In this document: positions 3,580-10,630 of the stretch, one piece after another
Numbering within the stretch: the stretch's first letter is position 1
Layout: every line of letters starts with the position of its first letter
From: Cedecea neteri
Lineage (GTDB): Bacteria > Pseudomonadota > Gammaproteobacteria > Enterobacterales > Enterobacteriaceae
NCBI RefSeq assembly: GCF_000757825.1
Contig: NZ_CP009451.1
Span: 1,922,001 to 1,986,000 of the forward strand
Direction: 5' to 3'
Length of the DNA: 64,000 nucleotides
The notes under the pieces: generated by a model
Databases searched by the model: none
What the model was told of the DNA's origin: nothing
The model's input: the letters and a program-made list of their open reading frames with translations, nothing else
Position numbers and translations under genes: made by a program

Positions 3580-4593
3580 TTAATTCTGACTAAAACCGCA
3601 TGACTCGCGGACGATAAGCGTCGGCGGCAAAATAATTCTTTTTGCCGGCTCATCGTTTCCCTGAATTCGGCTATAAAGCAGCTCTCCTGCTTTGCGGCCA
3701 ATCTCTTTAGCGGCGACAGAGACCGTGGTAAGCGCAGGCTGTACCAGCGATGCTTCGGTCACGTCATCGAACCCAACGAGCGCAAAATCTTTTCCGACAA
3801 CACGCCCCATCTTGCGCAGCGTCTGCATCACGCCCAGGGCGACAATATCCTGGTAACACACCGCCGCGGTGATCTGCGGGAAACGGGTAAAAAGCCCTTC
3901 TGCGACTCTGGCGCCGTCACTTTGAGAGGCCTGCGAGGCCACAATCCATTCGCTTTCAGGCTGAATATTGTGTTCCAGCAGCTTGCTGGTATACCCGCCG
4001 ATACGCTGTGCCCGGCTGGTAGAGCCGTTGCTCCCGCCGATAAAAGCAATATGCCTATGCCCGAGGCGTAACAAATGCTGAGTAGCCAACTGGGTTCCCA
4101 GGAAATTATCGGTGCCAACGAAGTCGAAATCGACATCCTCAAAGGGACGAACCACCATAATCGCTGGGATGTTTCTTCTTCTCAGCGTTTCAAAGAACAG
4201 CGGCGGAGTCTCTCTCGCGCCGCAAAGCACCATGCCGCAGGCATTATTGCGCATCAGAGAGTCGACAAATTTCTGCTGGCGTGCGCAGGATTCTTCGCTG
4301 TTTGCCAGAAAAAGCAGCAGATCGTGACGCTCCATCTCATGGCTTAGCCCGGCGGTCATTTCACCATAAAAAGGGTTGGTAATATCATGCAGTAGCAGCC
4401 CCACCTGATTACTGGTTCTGTTACGCAAATTGGCGGCGGTCTGGTTATACACATACCCCATCTCATCCAGCGTGAGTAATACCCGCTGCCGGGTGGCATC
4501 TGAAATACGCCCACGATTTCGTAGCACCATCGATACGGTTGCGGTTGAGACACCCGCCCGCTCAGCGACCTGAGCAAGAGTTACAGAAGTCAT
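3580..4593 (-). CDS. LacI/GalR-family transcriptional repressor of the adjacent sugar PTS island
   Basis: 337 residues. The N-terminus is a LacI-type helix-turn-helix (LAQVAERAGVSTATVSMVL) with hinge helix (NQTAANLRNRTS), followed by a periplasmic-binding-protein-like effector domain (VGLLLHDITNPFYGEMTAGL ... VGFDDVTEASLVQPALTTV). The overall pattern is close to MalI as I remember it, but the gene context is not maltose. It is divergent from the PTS operon across a 195-bp region containing two copies of a palindrome with a central CG, typical for LacI-family operators, and a CRP site. The third copy precedes the cupin operon at 10468. It most likely represses itself, the PTS operon and the cupin operon, and is released by a sugar or sugar phosphate; the inducer is unknown. 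Confidence 0.93.
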   Translation of the reverse strand: MTSVTLAQVAERAGVSTATVSMVLRNRGRISDATRQRVLLTLDEMGYVYNQTAANLRNRTSNQVGLLLHDITNPFYGEMTAGLSHEMERHDLLLFLANSEESCARQQKFVDSLMRNNACGMVLCGARETPPLFFETLRRRNIPAIMVVRPFEDVDFDFVGTDNFLGTQLATQHLLRLGHRHIAFIGGSNGSTSRAQRIGGYTSKLLEHNIQPESEWIVASQASQSDGARVAEGLFTRFPQITAAVCYQDIVALGVMQTLRKMGRVVGKDFALVGFDDVTEASLVQPALTTVSVAAKEIGRKAGELLYSRIQGNDEPAKRIILPPTLIVRESCGFSQN

Positions 4594-4622
4594 CGGCCCT
4601 CCTTGAAATCAATATCAGCAAA

Positions 4623-4638
4623 GATTAATCGAATAACC
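4623..4638 (-). promoter_or_regulatory. LacI-type operator copy 1 (upstream of repressor gene)
   Basis: Minus strand GGTTATTCGATTAATC, preceded by TTCA; it differs at one base from the two copies at 4745 and 10514. It sits 30 bp upstream of the repressor start codon and has the same orientation relative to its gene as the other copies. This suggests autoregulation. Confidence 0.75.
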
Positions 4639-4657
4639 TGAAACTTGCATCTTTCTA

Positions 4658-4673
4658 TGTGAAAGCCATCACA
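4658..4673. promoter_or_regulatory. CRP-cAMP binding site
   Basis: TGTGA-AAGCCA-TCACA, a perfect match to TGTGA-N6-TCACA. It lies between the divergent repressor gene and PTS operon, so activation by CRP and therefore glucose repression of the island is expected. Its centre is about 123 bp upstream of the PTS-operon start codon and 73 bp upstream of the repressor start codon. Confidence 0.85.
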
Positions 4674-4744
4674 GATAGCCGGTAAAAATCCTCATCATTG
4701 CGAAAAATGGCGGGTTAATCATGTTTACCACTCTGTTCAAAAAA

Positions 4745-4760
4745 GGTTAATCGATTAATC
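4745..4760 (+). promoter_or_regulatory. LacI-type operator copy 2 (upstream of PTS operon)
   Basis: GGTTAATCGATTAATC with the perfect palindromic core TTAATCGATTAA, 28 bp upstream of the first gene of the PTS operon. The 16 bp are identical to the copy at 10514-10529 read on the other strand. An additional half-site, GGTTAATC, lies at 4713-4720. Confidence 0.8.
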
Positions 4761-4788
4761 TTATTTTAAATGAAAACAGGGAGTACTT

Positions 4789-6537
4789 ATGAAACAGGCA
4801 GCGTATAACAAATTTCCTGAAGTCCAGGTTGCTGAGTATGCCGGCCACGCCTGCCAGGGCTGGGAGGCGATCGCCCAGGCGGTAAAGTCGACGCTTTCTC
4901 AAAGCGGAAAAACCGTGCTGGTGATCGATTGTTATCCAGGTGTACGCCTGGACGAGTTACGCCCACAGCTCATTGATGAGCTATGTCCGGCAAGAGTCAT
5001 TAATGTCGAAGAGGCACGCCACAGCGAGCAGCATCTGCATGACCTGCTGGCCGGAAATCTGACCGACGATCGCGTTTTTGGCGTCCTCTCCTGCCACCAG
5101 CTTATCGAGTTTTTCGACGCTGAGAAGCTGGCGCAGATGCAGCATGAAATAGAGGAAATGGATGCTGGCCTGGCGGTGGTTTATGGCTCCGGTGCCGCGC
5201 TGGTTCATGAAGGTGATGTGCTGGTGTATGCCGACCTGGCGCGCTGGGAGATCCAGCAGCGTTTCCGAAGCGGCGAGCTGGGCAACTGGGGAACGGAGGA
5301 TCAGCAGGAAGATATACTGCGCCGCTACAAACGCGCCTTCTTTATTGAATGGCGCGTGTTCGACCGCCATAAAACGCCATTGCTGAAACGCGCGAATTTT
5401 CTGTTGGATACCAATCAGAAGGATTCCCCAGCCCTGGTGACGGGCGAGGCACTGCGCCACGCGTTACAGCAAACAACCCGGCAGCCTTTCCGCGTCGTGC
5501 CCTTCTTCGACCCTGGAGTCTGGGGCGGACAGTGGATGAAGGAAAAATTCGATCTCGATCCCTCGAAGCCAAACTACGCATGGTGTTTTGACTGTGTGCC
5601 CGAGGAAAACAGCCTGTTACTGCGTATCGGTGACGTGCGGATCGAGATCCCCTCTCAGGATCTGGTGCTGCTCTACCCTCGCCCGCTGCTTGGCGAAAAA
5701 GTTCATGCTCGTTTTGGCGCAGAGTTCCCGATCCGCTTTGATTTTCTGGATACCGTCGGCGGTCAGAATCTCAGCTTTCAGGTTCATCCGCTGACCGAGT
5801 ACATCCAACAGCATTTCGGCATGCATTACACCCAGGATGAAAGCTACTACCTGCTGGAAGCCGAGCCGGGAGCAGAGGTCTATCTGGGGACCAAAACTGG
5901 CATCAACCCGCAGGAAATGCTGGACGATCTTGCCGCCGCTCAGCGCGGTGAAAAGACCTTTGATGACGAGAAATTTGTTAATCGTTTCCCGGCGCACAAG
6001 CACGACCATTTCCTGATCCCTGCGGGTACCGTTCACTGTTCTGGCTCAGGCGCTATGGTGCTGGAAATCAGCGCCACGCCTTACATCTTCACCTTCAAAC
6101 TGTGGGACTGGGGCCGATTGGGGCTGGATGGTTTACCGCGCCCCGTGCATCTGGAACACGGTGCTCAAGTTATCGACTGGCAGAGGGATACGCGCTGGGT
6201 CGAACAGCATCTGATAAACCATTTCGAGCCAATAGCCGAGGGAGATGGCTGGCACGAAGAACGAACCGGGCTTCATGAGCGTGAGTTTATTGAAACCCGG
6301 CGCCACTGGTTCAGCAAGCCGGTTACGCACCACACTCACGGTGGCGTGAACGTGCTTAATCTGGTGGAGGGCAGCGAAGCGGTGGTGGAAAGCCCAACTC
6401 ACGCCTTTGAACCGTTTGTTGTTCATTATGCGGAAACATTCATCGTTCCGGCCGCCGTGGGCGAATATCGAATCTCACCTTATGGCGAGGGCGTCGGGCA
6501 GCAGCTCGCCACGATGAAAGCCTGGGTAAGGGGATAA
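4789..6537 (+). CDS. Large class I phosphomannose-isomerase-like protein with an extra N-terminal domain
   Basis: 582 residues, about 190 longer than ordinary ManA. The C-terminal part (about 310-582) is a type I mannose-6-phosphate isomerase cupin: FQVHP (Gln331, His333), Glu351 in QDESYY and His416 in IPAGTVHCSGSG are the expected metal ligands, and FKLWDWGRLGLDG.PRPVH matches the conserved substrate-side motif. Residues 1-240 form a separate region (KTVLVIDCYPGV, KRAFFIEWRVFDRHKTPLL) that looks like a nucleotide-kinase-type fold without a Walker A loop; its role is unknown. First gene of a five-gene operon with PTS genes, 3 bp before EIIA. It probably isomerises the phosphorylated sugar delivered by the PTS. 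Substrate not deducible. Start ATG with GGGAG 7 nt upstream. Confidence 0.88.
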   Translation: MKQAAYNKFPEVQVAEYAGHACQGWEAIAQAVKSTLSQSGKTVLVIDCYPGVRLDELRPQLIDELCPARVINVEEARHSEQHLHDLLAGNLTDDRVFGVLSCHQLIEFFDAEKLAQMQHEIEEMDAGLAVVYGSGAALVHEGDVLVYADLARWEIQQRFRSGELGNWGTEDQQEDILRRYKRAFFIEWRVFDRHKTPLLKRANFLLDTNQKDSPALVTGEALRHALQQTTRQPFRVVPFFDPGVWGGQWMKEKFDLDPSKPNYAWCFDCVPEENSLLLRIGDVRIEIPSQDLVLLYPRPLLGEKVHARFGAEFPIRFDFLDTVGGQNLSFQVHPLTEYIQQHFGMHYTQDESYYLLEAEPGAEVYLGTKTGINPQEMLDDLAAAQRGEKTFDDEKFVNRFPAHKHDHFLIPAGTVHCSGSGAMVLEISATPYIFTFKLWDWGRLGLDGLPRPVHLEHGAQVIDWQRDTRWVEQHLINHFEPIAEGDGWHEERTGLHEREFIETRRHWFSKPVTHHTHGGVNVLNLVEGSEAVVESPTHAFEPFVVHYAETFIVPAAVGEYRISPYGEGVGQQLATMKAWVRG

Positions 6538-6540
6538 ATC

Positions 6541-6969
6541 ATGATTAACGTCATTCTTGCAACACACGGTCCGCTGGCGGAGGCGATGCTGGCAACCGCA
6601 CGCATGGTCTACGGCGAACTGCCGCACGTTTTTCCGGTTATGTTGAGCGAAACCAAGGGCATCAACGGCTTCCAGGATGAGTTTGCTGGCGTGCTTCAGC
6701 AAGCAAGCAAAGGTGCTGACGGCGTACTGGTGCTGTGCGATTTACAGAGCGGTACGCCGTGGAATGTTGCCTGCCATCATGCATTCGCTCCCTCAACGAC
6801 ACCGCCAATCGCGGTGCTGGGCGGCGTTAACTTCCCGATGCTGTTACTCAGCGACGAGCAAAAAACACTCACCGACGTAGAACAAGCCGCCGCCGTACTG
6901 CTTGAGCAAACGAAAGATGCGGTTGTTCAGGCTCGCCTGGTTGAAACCCAGCAATCTGATGATTTTTAA
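6541..6969 (+). CDS. PTS mannose/fructose/sorbose-family EIIA component
   Basis: 142 residues. The N-terminal INVILATHGPLAEAML contains the phosphorylated histidine (His9) of mannose-family EIIA domains, and LCDLQSGTPWNVA matches the conserved GGTP-like loop, with SGTP here. It is a free-standing cytoplasmic protein that takes phosphate from HPr and passes it to EIIB. It follows the isomerase gene after 3 bp and precedes EIIB by 9 bp, so the proteins are surely co-translated. Confidence 0.95.
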   Translation: MINVILATHGPLAEAMLATARMVYGELPHVFPVMLSETKGINGFQDEFAGVLQQASKGADGVLVLCDLQSGTPWNVACHHAFAPSTTPPIAVLGGVNFPMLLLSDEQKTLTDVEQAAAVLLEQTKDAVVQARLVETQQSDDF

Positions 6970-6978
6970 GGGGGCAAG

Positions 6979-7473
6979 ATGAGTATTTCATTTGTACGGA
7001 TTGACGACCGGGTGATCCACGGTCAGTTGATCACCCGATGGGCAAAAGAGCTGCCCTGTGACGGTATCGTGGCCATTGATGACGCCGTCGCAGCCGATCC
7101 GCTGCTTTCCTCAGTGATGAAAGGCGCGGTACAGGATACCAAAGTCTGGCTGTTCGATACCGCCACCGCCATTGAGAAGCTGCCGAAAATCATCGCCAGC
7201 GAAAAGCGCTATTTCGTGATTGGCAAGTCACCGGTCACGCTTCAGCGCATCGAGCAGGCGGGCGTCAGCCTGCAAAACGCTAACCGTAAAATTAACGTTG
7301 GGCCGATGAGCGCCCGCGCCAACACCACCACTATTGGGCCAAACCAGGCGGTCAGCGGAGAAGAAGCTTCGGCATTCGACTATCTGGCAGAGCGTGGGCA
7401 TCAGATTGAGTTTCGCCTGGTGCCGGACGCAAGCTGCTATAGCTGGCAGGACGCCCGTCAAAAAATAAAATAA
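6979..7473 (+). CDS. PTS mannose/fructose/sorbose-family EIIB component
   Basis: 164 residues, usual family length. The signature FVRIDDRVIHGQLITRW holds the active-site histidine (His14), which receives phosphate from EIIA and donates it to the incoming sugar. VGPMSARANTTTIGPNQAVS and the C-terminal EFRLVPDASCYSW segment are typical of the family. It lies between EIIA and EIIC in the operon with a GGGGGCAAG ribosome site. Cytoplasmic, associated with EIIC/EIID. Confidence 0.95.
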   Translation: MSISFVRIDDRVIHGQLITRWAKELPCDGIVAIDDAVAADPLLSSVMKGAVQDTKVWLFDTATAIEKLPKIIASEKRYFVIGKSPVTLQRIEQAGVSLQNANRKINVGPMSARANTTTIGPNQAVSGEEASAFDYLAERGHQIEFRLVPDASCYSWQDARQKIK

Positions 7474-7483
7474 GGAGTGCATC

Positions 7484-8278
7484 ATGGCTTTTGAAGCTGC
7501 GTTAATCGGCATTCTCTGTTACCTCGGTGCGCTCAGCAGCCCCTGGCTGCTCGGGCTCACCGGCGGCTGGTATCTGATTACCCGCCCGCTGGTTTCAGGC
7601 ATGCTGGTGGGGTTTATCCTTGGCGATGTGCAAACCGGGATTATCATCGGCGTGGCCGTGCAGGCGGTCTACATTGCGATGGTAACCCCCGGAGGATCGA
7701 TGCCGGCAGACCTTAACTTTGTCGCCTTCCCGGCGATTGCGCTGGGGATCTTATCGAATAAAGGGCCGGAAGTGGCCGTAGCGCTTGCCGCGACCATCGG
7801 CATTGCGGGCACGGTACTGTTTAACGCCATGCTGGTGCTGAACTCGTGGTGGAACCATCGGGCGGACATTGCACTGGAGAAAGGTGATGAGCGCGGTATT
7901 TACCTCAACAGCGCCATCTGGCCCCAGGCCACCAACTTCCTGATGCGCTTTGTGCCGACCTTCATCGCCGTCTATTTTGGCGCACAGTACATCAATGGAT
8001 TTATGGATAGCCTGCCACACGTCGTGCTATCGACGATGAACGTGCTCGGCGGCATTCTGCCTGCGGTAGGCATCGCCATTCTGTTGAAGCAAATCATCAA
8101 AAACTACAGCATGCTGATCTACTTCCTGGTGGGCTTTATCTGCATCGTTTTCCTGAAGCTAAATATGGTGGCGCTGGTTATCGTCGGCAGCCTTTTAGCC
8201 CTAATCCATTACAACTACAAGCCAGAGCCACAGCCAGCAAATACGGCGAAACCGGCCGATGACGAGGATGAATTCTGA
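7484..8278 (+). CDS. PTS mannose/fructose/sorbose-family EIIC permease
   Basis: 264 residues, strongly hydrophobic with several membrane helices (for example around 5-25, 75-100 and 205-235). The sequence VAVQAVYIAMVTPGGSMPAD is the conserved EIIC loop with the substrate-site glycine/proline pattern. The last residues (PEPQPANTAKPADDEDEF) form an acidic, proline-rich cytoplasmic tail. Start ATG with AAGGAG 6 nt upstream. The stop codon overlaps the EIID start by one base (TGATG), so translation is coupled. Confidence 0.94.
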   Translation: MAFEAALIGILCYLGALSSPWLLGLTGGWYLITRPLVSGMLVGFILGDVQTGIIIGVAVQAVYIAMVTPGGSMPADLNFVAFPAIALGILSNKGPEVAVALAATIGIAGTVLFNAMLVLNSWWNHRADIALEKGDERGIYLNSAIWPQATNFLMRFVPTFIAVYFGAQYINGFMDSLPHVVLSTMNVLGGILPAVGIAILLKQIIKNYSMLIYFLVGFICIVFLKLNMVALVIVGSLLALIHYNYKPEPQPANTAKPADDEDEF

Positions 8279-9096
8279 TGGAAGATCGCAAACTCACCCG
8301 CCAGGATCTGCGCCGCTGCTGGCGCAGCTGGATGATGTATAACCTTTCTTCAATGAGCTTCGAACGCCTGGAATCCTTCGGCTTTTGCCTGAGTATGCTG
8401 CCCGTGGCGAAAAAGCTTTATCCGGATCTTCAGCAGCGTAAGGAGATGCTCAAACGGCATGCGTCGTTTTACAACACGGAACCGCAGCTGGGCGCTATCG
8501 TTAACGGCATGGTGCTGGGTCTGGAAGAGAAACGCGCCAACGGAGAACCTATCGACGGTGAAACCATCAACACCCTGAAAGTGGGGCTGATGGGGCCGGT
8601 CGCAGGGATTGGCGACTCCATGATTCCCGGTATGCTGATTCCTATCCTGTTAAGCATCGGGATGGCGCTGGCGGCAGGCGGCAATATTCTTGGACCGCTG
8701 TTCTACTGCGTGGCCTGGCTGGCAATCATTGTTCCCGGCTCGTGGTTCCTGTTCCTTAAAGGCTACCGGATGGGCTCAACGTCGGTTGAGATGCTGGTCA
8801 GCAGCAAATCAAACCGGCTGCGCGAAGCGCTTTCGCTGCTCGGCGTATTTGTGATGGGCGGCGTGGCTGCGAGCTACGTCAAATTAGGCACCGGGCTGGA
8901 GTTCATCACTAAAGACGGCGTGAATATCCATTTACAGCAAATGCTGGACGGTATTTTCCCGCAGCTTTTACCGCTGGTGGTGGTACTGGGGACCTGGTAT
9001 TTGATGGCAAAACGCGGCCTGTCGCCGGTTAAGGCAATGTTGATGCTGCTGGTTATTGCAGCTCTTGGTGTCGCGGTTGGATTATTTGCAGCTTAA
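8278..9096 (+). CDS. PTS mannose/fructose/sorbose-family EIID component
   Basis: 272 residues. It begins with the family pattern LTRQDLRRCWRSWMMYNLSSMSFERLESFGF and has the GLMGPVAGIGDSMIPGMLIPI segment typical of EIID. C-terminal membrane helices end LLVIAALGVAVGLFAA. With EIIC it forms the membrane channel of the PTS transporter. It is the last gene of the operon; a strong inverted repeat follows at 9103. Confidence 0.95.
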   Translation: MEDRKLTRQDLRRCWRSWMMYNLSSMSFERLESFGFCLSMLPVAKKLYPDLQQRKEMLKRHASFYNTEPQLGAIVNGMVLGLEEKRANGEPIDGETINTLKVGLMGPVAGIGDSMIPGMLIPILLSIGMALAAGGNILGPLFYCVAWLAIIVPGSWFLFLKGYRMGSTSVEMLVSSKSNRLREALSLLGVFVMGGVAASYVKLGTGLEFITKDGVNIHLQQMLDGIFPQLLPLVVVLGTWYLMAKRGLSPVKAMLMLLVIAALGVAVGLFAA

Positions 9097-9102
9097 CGTT
9101 AC

Positions 9103-9131
9103 CCCCTCCTCCGCACGGAGGAGGGGACATT
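9103..9131. terminator. Transcription terminator between convergent PTS and cupin operons
   Basis: Perfect 11-bp inverted repeat CCCCTCCTCCG / CGGAGGAGGGG (9103-9113, 9116-9126) with only CA between the arms, followed by ACATTTTC. It lies between the EIID stop and the cupin-gene stop and could serve both directions. The T-run is short, so efficiency is uncertain. Confidence 0.65.
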
Positions 9132-9132
9132 T

Positions 9133-9915
9133 TCAAGGGTGAAAATTCACCCACTTCTCGGCAACCATTCCCGGTTTTGAAATAAACTGAAAACGAGCCG
9201 GATCGTCCACAAATTGCTGATATAGCGGCTCATCTGTAATCCCAAACTCCCGATATTTACGCGGGGAGGTCGTGTGCAGGCGACCCGGCATATAATGTCG
9301 GTTATGCTGCCAGGCAACGTGCTCATCCTGCAAAATCGGATACCACGCCAGCCCCTTGTAGGCCCGCACCGCCTCATATTCAAAACCGTATTCCCTGTCG
9401 CACCACGCCCCAAACGTTAAAGGCTCGTGCGGCGAAGCAGAAACGGTAGCATGGGCCCAGCCGGGTGGCACCAGCACCTTATCGCCAGCTTCAGCCAATA
9501 TTGCAAAGCAACGGCCCGGATCGTCGGCCACAAACTCCTGCATATAGATAATCGCCTTCCCCTGCCAGATTTCATACAGTTCGGGCGGCGACCAGCCGCT
9601 GTGAGCGCTGACCCGATGAATATGCCCCTGGCTGCGAATGGGTTCTTCGCCCAAACGCCCGGACGCATAGGTCACCACGCCAAAAAGCAACATTCGCTTC
9701 TTCAGTTCGGCAATATCACTTATCCGGGCGACGTCCATTGCAATCGCATACACCTGTTCCGGCCCTGTACATTCAGGATCCCGCAGAGAAGCTCGGATTT
9801 GATCCAGCGTGCGGATTTCAGGCAAAGGCCCCAGCGTTTCTTCGCCATAGCTGAACCCCATAGGCTGATGATGAATCAGCATATCCAGGCCGTATTTTTT
9901 TACGCTGTCAGTCAT
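9133..9915 (-). CDS. Cupin-type glucose-6-phosphate-isomerase-like protein, second gene of pair
   Basis: 260 residues. A single cupin with the metal-ligand pattern SQGHIH (His98, His100), PELYE (Glu112) and PPGWAH (His155), as in the metal-dependent phosphoglucose isomerases of archaea (GPI cupin family). The start is the ATG at 9915, where the reading overlaps the end of the preceding cupin gene by 8 bp; a longer in-frame extension to 10020 lies wholly inside that gene and is discarded. It likely interconverts an aldose- and a ketose-phosphate in the PTS-borne sugar pathway. The true substrate is unknown; a lyxose- or other sugar isomerase activity is also possible in this fold. Confidence 0.85.
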   Translation of the reverse strand: MTDSVKKYGLDMLIHHQPMGFSYGEETLGPLPEIRTLDQIRASLRDPECTGPEQVYAIAMDVARISDIAELKKRMLLFGVVTYASGRLGEEPIRSQGHIHRVSAHSGWSPPELYEIWQGKAIIYMQEFVADDPGRCFAILAEAGDKVLVPPGWAHATVSASPHEPLTFGAWCDREYGFEYEAVRAYKGLAWYPILQDEHVAWQHNRHYMPGRLHTTSPRKYREFGITDEPLYQQFVDDPARFQFISKPGMVAEKWVNFHP

Positions 9916-10468
9916 GGCTAGCCTCCGCGCGCCAGCCAGTGCCGTCGGTCTTGATCCTGACGGAAAATCCGTCCGACAGAGTGGCGTAATCATGCCCGGC
10001 AACCGTTGGCCAAACAGCAAGAGCGGAAAGAATTTCGCCGCCCGTATTGATGAGCCGGTGCGCTGTATACCCGGGAATGATATGCACGGATCCGGCGGTA
10101 ACTATCTCGACCCGGGCTTCACCTCGTTCGTTTTGCAGCAGCAATAATCCGCAGCCGCGCAGGCCGAAATAGACTTCGCCCTGCTCCCGGCGCGCATGAA
10201 AATGGCCACGAGTCATAAAAAACTCATCGCCAACCCGGCCTGGGTGTACGTGAGTCACGCCGGTAAAAAGCGCACCTTCGCAAGTTTCAGTTTGCAGAAC
10301 GTCAACATCATAGACAGCCTGGCCAGGCTCACATCGTTGCCAGCTTTTTGTGTCGGCAAAAACGCCAGCCAGCGCGGCTATATCGGTGGTTTTGCGGATA
10401 ACGGGGCCATTTTTCAGCGCGCCCGTTTGCCATGCCACATGGGGTGGCACGAGAGTAGAAAGTGTCAT
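9908..10468 (-). CDS. Cupin-type glucose-6-phosphate-isomerase-like protein, first gene of pair
   Basis: 186 residues, the usual length of archaeal-type cupin phosphoglucose isomerase. The motif FMTRGHFHARREQGEVYFGL gives His89, His91 and Glu98, and PGYTAH gives His137; the spacing is essentially that of the Pyrococcus furiosus enzyme (His88, His90, Glu97, His136, from memory). GGAGATAAAC precedes the ATG. It is the first gene of a two-gene operon read toward the PTS operon, with an operator identical to the PTS operon's 46 bp upstream. Such enzymes are rare in enterics, which use the unrelated Pgi for glycolysis, so a dedicated role for the imported sugar is inferred. Confidence 0.88.
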   Translation of the reverse strand: MTLSTLVPPHVAWQTGALKNGPVIRKTTDIAALAGVFADTKSWQRCEPGQAVYDVDVLQTETCEGALFTGVTHVHPGRVGDEFFMTRGHFHARREQGEVYFGLRGCGLLLLQNERGEARVEIVTAGSVHIIPGYTAHRLINTGGEILSALAVWPTVAGHDYATLSDGFSVRIKTDGTGWRAEASHD

Positions 10469-10513
10469 GTTTATCTCCGGCCCGAGGAGAACAACTTCAT
10501 CGACACACTAACA

Positions 10514-10529
10514 GATTAATCGATTAACC
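10514..10529 (-). promoter_or_regulatory. LacI-type operator copy 3 (upstream of cupin operon)
   Basis: Minus strand GGTTAATCGATTAATC, identical over 16 bp to the operator before the PTS operon at 4745-4760 and preceded by TTCA as in copy 1. It is 46 bp upstream of the first cupin start. It ties the cupin pair to the same repressor. The remaining 100 bp up to rihC hold no other signal that I recognise. Confidence 0.8.
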
Positions 10530-10630
10530 TGAAGACGAATGAACAAGCTTGCGAACGCAATCACACTCCTGGAACCGGAAGGCAGAGCTTCACCGAAATA
10601 TCCCTATGCTGGCTTGTTTAGTGCATCCAC

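Follow-up and report, generated by a model that had tools for sequence, protein, structure and literature searches.

The described systems closest to the locus considered here are the ManXYZ/ManA route and the MngR–MngA–MngB system of E. coli, together with the cupin phosphoglucose isomerases (PGIs) of Pyrococcus and Thermococcus. MngR is a GntR-type regulator, and MalI, a further point of comparison, has other targets and another operator sequence. The locus lies in a stretch of 64,000 nucleotides of the Cedecea neteri contig NZ_CP009451.1 (positions 1,922,001 to 1,986,000; hereafter the window) and comprises genes for a LacI-family repressor, a phosphomannose isomerase (PMI)-like protein, the enzyme II (EII) components EIIA to EIID of a mannose-family phosphotransferase system (PTS), and two cupins. 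We found that one operator stands at all three promoters of this cluster, and the neighbours of the same genes in other bacteria suggest that it probably serves the catabolism of a mannose-type sugar. For LacI-family regulators, the text of a published survey (PMC4052901) describes 54 groups without a known specific sugar and five 'ManR' groups for mannose or mannosides.

One operator at three promoters

The operator is a nearly palindromic 16-bp sequence, GGTTAATCGATTAATC. As a preliminary description of this DNA had claimed, it occurs exactly at two places and with one mismatch at a third (Table 1), always in the same orientation relative to its gene, and lies 28 bp before the start of the PMI-like gene, 29 bp before that of the repressor gene and 45 bp before that of the first cupin gene. 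When up to three mismatches were allowed, the window contained 6 matches, each of the three places being counted once per strand, against 0.31 expected by chance, and none of 100 shuffles of the window reached 6. Throughout the genome (4,876,443 bp, one contig), sites with at most one mismatch were found at the three places only; two further sites have two mismatches (1534163 and 2916516), and a reversed-pattern control gave 0 and 0 matches genome-wide. On the basis of the shuffles and the genome-wide count, we rejected the possibility that the operator is a chance or abundant motif. A sigma-70 scan of the window detected promoters no more often than in shuffled sequence, and none at the operators.

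Relatives were sampled as the best 80 of 589 confirmed stretches, in which gene calls were mechanical and missed genes lying under antisense open reading frames (ORFs); gene presence in gamma-proteobacterial loci was scored by tblastn. At up to three mismatches, 35 gamma-proteobacterial loci (598,852 bases) yielded 94 operator matches, of which 91 are close to the start of a repressor, PMI-like or cupin gene. In the window, 122 bp separate the operator of the repressor gene from that of the PMI-like gene; the spacing is 121–132 bp in most relatives and 111–112 bp in the two Pantoea. By hand count, 22 of the 23 Enterobacterales loci with a first cupin also have an operator at the cupin promoter, and it is absent from all six loci lacking that gene; the single exception among the 23, L039, has both cupins and is missing the third operator. 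A Vibrio locus (L032) whose LacI protein is 43% identical gave no operator match at up to three mismatches, so the regulator may differ there. Genome-wide uniqueness and conservation in relatives thus support the earlier reading of one regulon with one operator at three promoters, conserved across genera.

The repressor itself contains the helix-turn-helix and the periplasmic-binding-protein-like effector domain of the LacI family (PF00356, PF13377), and its operator has the LacI-family form, an even palindrome with a central CG near its own and the target promoters. The nearest subfamily model is that of MalI (NF007449), which the repressor matches with 303.5 bits, below the cut-off of 310.

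A CRP-like site lies between the operators of the repressor and PMI-like genes. Since the CRP-like pattern is not in excess in the window (2 found, 1.26 expected), the evidence for the site is its conservation across loci. The scan covered loci with operator matches: of 33 that have one operator close to the start of the PMI-like gene, 29 could be scored, and L025 and L032 stand outside the count. In 23 of the 29 testable loci (hand count), a site with at most one mismatch is found between the two operators, in all 23 at 87 or 88 bp from the PMI-like operator and with six central bases that vary. Random 122-bp windows contain such a match in 0.6% of cases.

Neighbouring genes in relatives point to a mannose-type sugar

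According to the preliminary description, nothing reveals which sugar the cluster handles. This statement is not supported, as relatives tie these genes to alpha-mannosidases and to PTS of the mannosylglycerate type. We counted neighbours of the PMI-like gene in 51 loci outside the Enterobacterales and in 29 Enterobacterales loci, the latter including an Enterobacteriaceae metagenome-assembled genome (MAG; L034); L045, L056 and L076, which have no PMI-like ORF in the cluster table, were kept in the denominators. An alpha-mannosidase gene of glycoside hydrolase family 38 (GH38) is located near the PMI-like gene in 17 of the 51 loci and in 3 of the 29. Other neighbours in the 51 loci are ROK kinases (23), Sugar_tr transporters (11) and GH2 enzymes (3), and GH92 was present in 1 of 52 loci in a grouping that includes L034. 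In annotated Bacteroidota records, the gene order is SusCD–GH76–GH92–GH76–ROK–PMI-like in Spirosoma and PMI-like–ROK–GH92–MFS (major facilitator superfamily)–GH38 in Parabacteroides, and a Hymenobacter record holds PMI-like, MFS and GH92 genes.

In two Aeromonas loci (L035, L036) and the Pluralibacter MAG L034, the same regulator type and operator stand before genes for the PMI-like protein, an EIIBC, a GH38 enzyme, an MFS transporter and LamB; L034 was scanned for families, and the two Aeromonas loci were read by protein cluster. The strongest link comes from within the Enterobacteriaceae. Enterobacter L020 has an operator immediately ahead of an MngA-like EIIABC gene (426.8 bits; cut-off 763) and a CRP-like site at the spacing seen elsewhere, and the EIIABC gene is followed by an MngB-like GH38 gene that is cut by the locus end (444.9 bits; cut-off 1138). 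In Superficieibacter L022, an MngA-like gene that runs off the end of the locus likewise has an operator ahead of it, and an MngA-like EII is encoded beside the PMI-like gene in Photobacterium L033. The MngA- and MngB-like genes score under the equivalog cut-offs, so their substrates may be other than mannosylglycerate. The location of the relatives' genes beside mannose-cutting enzymes indicates that the cluster most likely handles a mannose-type sugar.

The operators and the PMI-like gene of Enterobacter L025 are separated by a shortened MngA-like gene followed by one for GH38. The MngA-like remnant (L025:4395–5339) consists of an EIIA directly joined to a C-terminal EIIC piece, before GH38 and under the same operator. 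This seems to be a mannoside module decaying beside the mannose-family PTS.

The isomerase-like enzymes and the PTS

Pfam matches agree with the gene names given earlier, namely LacI family, Man-family EIIA, EIIB, EIIC and EIID, and two PF06560 cupins. The label 'isomerase-like' for the three enzymes calls for caution, as active-site positions are changed in the PMI-like protein and the second cupin.

The PMI-like protein, 95% identical to a Cedecea neteri protein, keeps its name on account of the double-cupin PMI fold of its C-terminal part, though no Pfam family matches it at E 0.001 and the sole PF20511 match of the genome lies elsewhere. Its zinc ligands (Q331, H333, E351 and H416), aligned to canonical PMIs, are invariant in 44 sequences. 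Equally invariant in these 44 are Gln349 and Lys437, which take the place of a Lys and an Arg of canonical PMIs. Of the PMIs compared, the ManA of this genome and the canonical ones from L040, L043 and L062 have the Lys, and the three from these loci also have the Arg; the ManA is misaligned at the second position and has the stretch NVLRAG. By role and alignment position, the two canonical residues would correspond to Lys132 and Arg274 of the active site (S. Typhimurium numbering), and K132A and R274A mutants are named in PDB titles. The N-terminal part is conserved as well, with many invariant residues; for these roughly 225 amino acids, Pfam at E 10 and a PDB sequence search returned weak scattered matches, and a structure search of the whole protein gave a match list that was filled by the PMI part. 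By eye, we suspected a degenerate nucleoside-kinase-like fold in the N-terminal part, an impression that none of the search results backs.

At least 7,998 relatives of the PMI-like protein were scored, among which shorter canonical PMIs may be included; of the best 120 listed, every named one is a mannose-6-phosphate isomerase. By record titles, the gene is present in Pseudomonadota, Bacteroidota, Bacillota, Spirochaetota, Verrucomicrobiota, Acidobacteriota, Deinococcota and Chlorobiota, and the trio of PMI-like protein and both cupins in at least Pseudomonadota, Bacteroidota, Bacillota and Chlorobiota. No biochemical study of the PMI-like family surfaced in a full-text literature search.

For the first cupin, a search of solved structures gives cupin PGIs (1j3p, 3.4e-35). 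In the cupin enzyme PfPGI the metal ligands are His88, His90, Glu97 and His136; PMC6627849 assigns roles to these and to His158, and one in proton transfer to Tyr152. The corresponding metal ligands of the first cupin (H89, H91, E98 and H137) and its equivalent of His158 (H159) are invariant in 17 sequences; the Tyr152 position is occupied by Trp153 and varies among the 17. The second cupin likewise has invariant metal ligands (H99, H101, E113 and H156; 16 sequences), and Phe179 and Cys173, invariant in the same 16, at the positions of His158 and Tyr152. Judged from the alignment, it has lost both of the predicted proton-relay residues. Its predicted model (pLDDT 94.3) matches solved cupin PGIs more weakly (best 1.5e-12, TM 0.55 of the query) and has an extra loop and a longer C-terminal end than cupin PGI. 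In L032 and L037, where the first cupin is present and the second absent, an AGE-family protein is encoded after the PTS genes; in Deinococcus, such a protein follows the PMI-like gene.

Relatives of the cupins were also seen in other settings. In Parabacteroides (L099:8500–10789), first cupin, ROK kinase and second cupin genes adjoin, accompanied by genes for an MFS transporter, SusCD and a GH2 enzyme; no PMI-like gene lies within the stretch shown, so the cupin pair may work without the PMI-like protein. On a Salmonella IncI plasmid (L100:4171–7906), genes for a glucose-type EIIBC and a PF06560-like cupin adjoin hxlB and hxlA, a set of the hexose-to-pentose type; the cupin is a distant relative of the second cupin (27% identity), and this conjugative plasmid also bears resistance genes. 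On pSymB of Sinorhizobium meliloti (L102:5007–5651), a first-cupin relative is encoded beside D-threitol and glycerol dehydrogenases, a keto-deoxy-phosphogluconate-type aldolase and a SIS-domain protein, which suggests PF06560-type enzymes with other substrates.

Regarding the PTS, EIIA, EIIB, EIIC and EIID each scored over the Pfam cut-off for the mannose family. EIIB, EIIC and EIID are 23–35% identical to the three other mannose-family systems of the genome, and EIIA gave no match in the stretches compared.

A proposed function and its alternatives

The cluster is probably a CRP-activated, LacI-repressed regulon for the catabolism of a mannose-type sugar that operates apart from the housekeeping ManA and the presumed ManXYZ route. 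The repressor would bind all three operators, possibly looping the 122 bp between two of them, and would be released by a sugar phosphate made by the pathway, with CRP activating once better sugars are gone. EIIABCD would import D-mannose or a close derivative as the 6-phosphate, and the PMI-like protein would convert the imported sugar 6-phosphate into the phosphate of a ketose, which for mannose 6-phosphate would be fructose 6-phosphate. Interconversion of fructose 6-phosphate and glucose 6-phosphate would fall to the first cupin, and the second would carry out a related aldose–ketose conversion of another substrate or form, the pair being an optional module with its own operator.

Several observations weigh against this proposal. 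GH38 was not found in 34 of the 51 loci outside the Enterobacterales, some of which are short stretches, and the count comes without a background rate for random genes. The genome of the window holds a canonical PMI, a canonical PGI and three other EIID genes, and it has no match to GH38 (PF01074), the hydrolase of an MngRAB-type system, so that a mannose system looks redundant there. In addition, the PMI-like protein lacks two positions common to the canonical PMIs compared, and Priestia L040, Maledivibacter L043 and Clostridiaceae L062 each encode a canonical PMI close to it, an odd arrangement if the two proteins catalyse the same reaction.

An alternative is that the PTS imports another hexose or derivative and that the PMI-like protein and the two cupins perform consecutive steps to mannose 6-phosphate, which ManA would then convert into fructose 6-phosphate; this would be a new isomerisation route rather than a second PMI and PGI. 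The canonical PMIs in L040, L043 and L062, the housekeeping PMI and PGI, the invariant Gln349 and Lys437, Phe179 and Cys173 in 16 of 16 second cupins, and the AGE-family proteins in the two loci without a second cupin are all in line with such a route. We nevertheless regard it as rather unlikely, given that the mannan and alpha-mannoside clusters of Spirosoma and Parabacteroides combine a ROK kinase with the PMI-like protein and, over the stretch displayed, carry no cupin, as would suit an ordinary mannose 6-phosphate isomerase, and that the neighbours seen point to no sugar but mannose. We put forward tentatively, as possible but less likely than not, that the PMI-like protein founds a separate enzyme family with an extra N-terminal part, is not a phosphomannose isomerase, and constitutes with the two cupins a sugar-phosphate isomerisation route in mannan and mannoside catabolism.

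The imported compound could also be a mannoside, for example a mannosylglycerate-like compatible solute, the hydrolase having been lost or belonging to another family, in which case the regulon would be a trimmed version of a larger mannoside regulon. In favour of this are the MngA- and MngB-like genes that stand behind the same operator in L020 and L025, the MngA-like gene behind it in L022 and the MngA-like EII beside the PMI-like gene in Photobacterium, but the mannosylglycerate-type EII is a separate fructose-family protein that occurs besides or instead of the mannose-family PTS, and with no GH38 in the window's genome we consider this improbable. Finally, it is very improbable that the PMI-like protein is regulatory or ligand-binding, without isomerase activity, and that the cupins do the catalysis, because the loss of the canonical Lys and Arg and the many invariant residues of the N-terminal part are set against four zinc-ligand positions that are invariant in all 44 sequences and against the Spirosoma and Parabacteroides clusters, where the PMI-like protein is the sole annotated isomerase-like protein beside the kinase.

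Layout of the cluster

The features of the cluster are listed in Table 1. The inverted repeat between the convergent operons was seen by eye and is absent from the terminator-scan output for the window. We considered rihC as a further member of the regulon and rejected it, as it has no operator upstream and encodes a plain RihC. In Superficieibacter L022 (12452–15154), genes for a cellobiose/lactose-type EIIC and a GH1 enzyme are placed between the EIID and second-cupin genes.

Table 1. Genes and sites of the cluster, in window coordinates
Feature	Position	Strand	Evidence
LacI-family repressor gene, 337 aa	3580..4593	-	PF00356/PF13377 over cut-off
Operator at repressor gene, one mismatch	4623..4638	-	Motif scan; kept in relatives
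CRP-like site TGTGA-N6-TCACA between two operators	4658..4673	+	0 mismatches
Operator at PMI-like/PTS operon, exact	4745..4760	+	Motif scan; kept in relatives
PMI-like protein, 582 aa: ~225-aa N-terminal part, then type I PMI-fold part	4789..6537	+	
Mannose-family EIIA	6541..6969	+	PF03610
Mannose/sorbose-family EIIB	6979..7473	+	PF03830
Mannose/sorbose-family EIIC	7484..8278	+	PF03609; relative of solved ManY 6k1h/7dyr
Mannose-family EIID	8278..9096	+	PF03613; relative of solved ManZ 6k1h
Long G+C-rich inverted repeat between convergent operons; possible two-way terminator	9103..9126	.	By eye
Second cupin ('GPI2'), 260 aa	9133..9915	-	PF06560, metal ligands kept
First cupin ('GPI1'), 186 aa	9908..10468	-	PF06560; close to archaeal-type cupin phosphoglucose isomerase
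Operator at cupin operon, exact	10514..10529	-	Motif scan; kept in relatives
CRP-like site near cupin operator, one mismatch	10550..10565	+	Weak alone

Distribution and genomic setting

The cluster is patchily distributed. Co-occurrence of the three enzymes proved tight: out of 295 Enterobacteriaceae genomes, 36 have the PMI-like gene, 34 the first cupin and 32 the second, and all 32 genomes with the second cupin have the other two (Fisher 8e-39 for the PMI-like gene with the second cupin). These counts used strict E-value limits and include partial matches (the PMI-like gene in G243 and G292, the second cupin in G386) and a weak first-cupin match (4e-21) in G433. One genome (G356) has the PMI-like gene and the first cupin only, three (G199, G243 and G296) the PMI-like gene only, and G275 a first-cupin match only. 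Three other genomes of the source genus in the sample are without the PMI-like gene and both cupins. In the 29 Enterobacterales loci, repressor and PMI-like genes were found in 29, the four PTS genes in 28 and both cupins in 23; as six of the loci are without the two cupins, these form a separable module.

The flanking genes dapB and rihC, with which the full set was said to move, are present in many loci, but not in all. Only 18 of the 29 have dapB within 3 kb of the repressor gene, and hence the set is not tied to the dapB/rihC slot. In L008, the distance to dapB is roughly 6 kb, and the sequence of L013 begins too close to the repressor gene for dapB to be judged; no dapB lies within the available stretch of the Serratia and Mixta loci, one Buttiauxella locus and the Chimaeribacter locus. 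That E. coli has nothing at this place holds for the one E. coli genome looked at, in which dapB adjoins rihC. A megablast search with the dapB-to-ispH stretch against 5,426 E. coli genomes returned no place with 80% cover. One locus, L017, is labelled E. coli, a label that may be wrong since a similar second cupin (P0146) is named Escherichia whittamii. We rejected E. coli as a carrier, as a megablast search (about 85% identity or more) with the L017 cluster against the E. coli collection gave no match.

Comparison with known systems

A widespread PMI-like family gains a regulon, an operator and a likely substrate class. If its changed active site means another reaction, a common annotation would be wrong across many phyla, and if it is truly a separate enzyme family, many proteins called 'class I mannose-6-phosphate isomerase' would be misnamed. 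The regulon, of a LacI/CRP type and probably for mannose, keeps its operator while its modules vary by species (mannose-family PTS, GH38 with MngA-like PTS, cupins). As for the earlier remark that no characterised system with this gene set is known, none surfaced in the full-text literature search; the supplementary tables of PMC4052901, which lie outside the reach of that search, may list the regulator. The regulatory logic is ordinary, and the gene content is new as far as searched.

Like E. coli ManXYZ/ManA, the cluster has mannose-family EII components and a PMI fold with zinc ligands, but it adds a LacI repressor gene with its operator and two cupins, and its PMI-like protein has the extra N-terminal part of about 225 amino acids and changed active-site positions. 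With MngR–MngA–MngB it shares a PTS and probably mannose phosphate chemistry, and MngA- and MngB-like genes join the regulon in some relatives, whereas its regulator is of the LacI type, its PTS belongs to another family and its genome has no GH38. The first cupin resembles the cupin PGIs of Pyrococcus and Thermococcus in family, metal ligands and the His158 equivalent and differs from them in Trp153, and the second departs further, with Phe179, Cys173, an extra loop and a longer C-terminal end. As for the repressor, MalI provides the nearest NCBIfam model, although the score is below its cut-off. As far as described in the text of PMC4052901, the ManR-type regulators resemble the repressor in belonging to the LacI family and in having target genes for mannose or mannosides.

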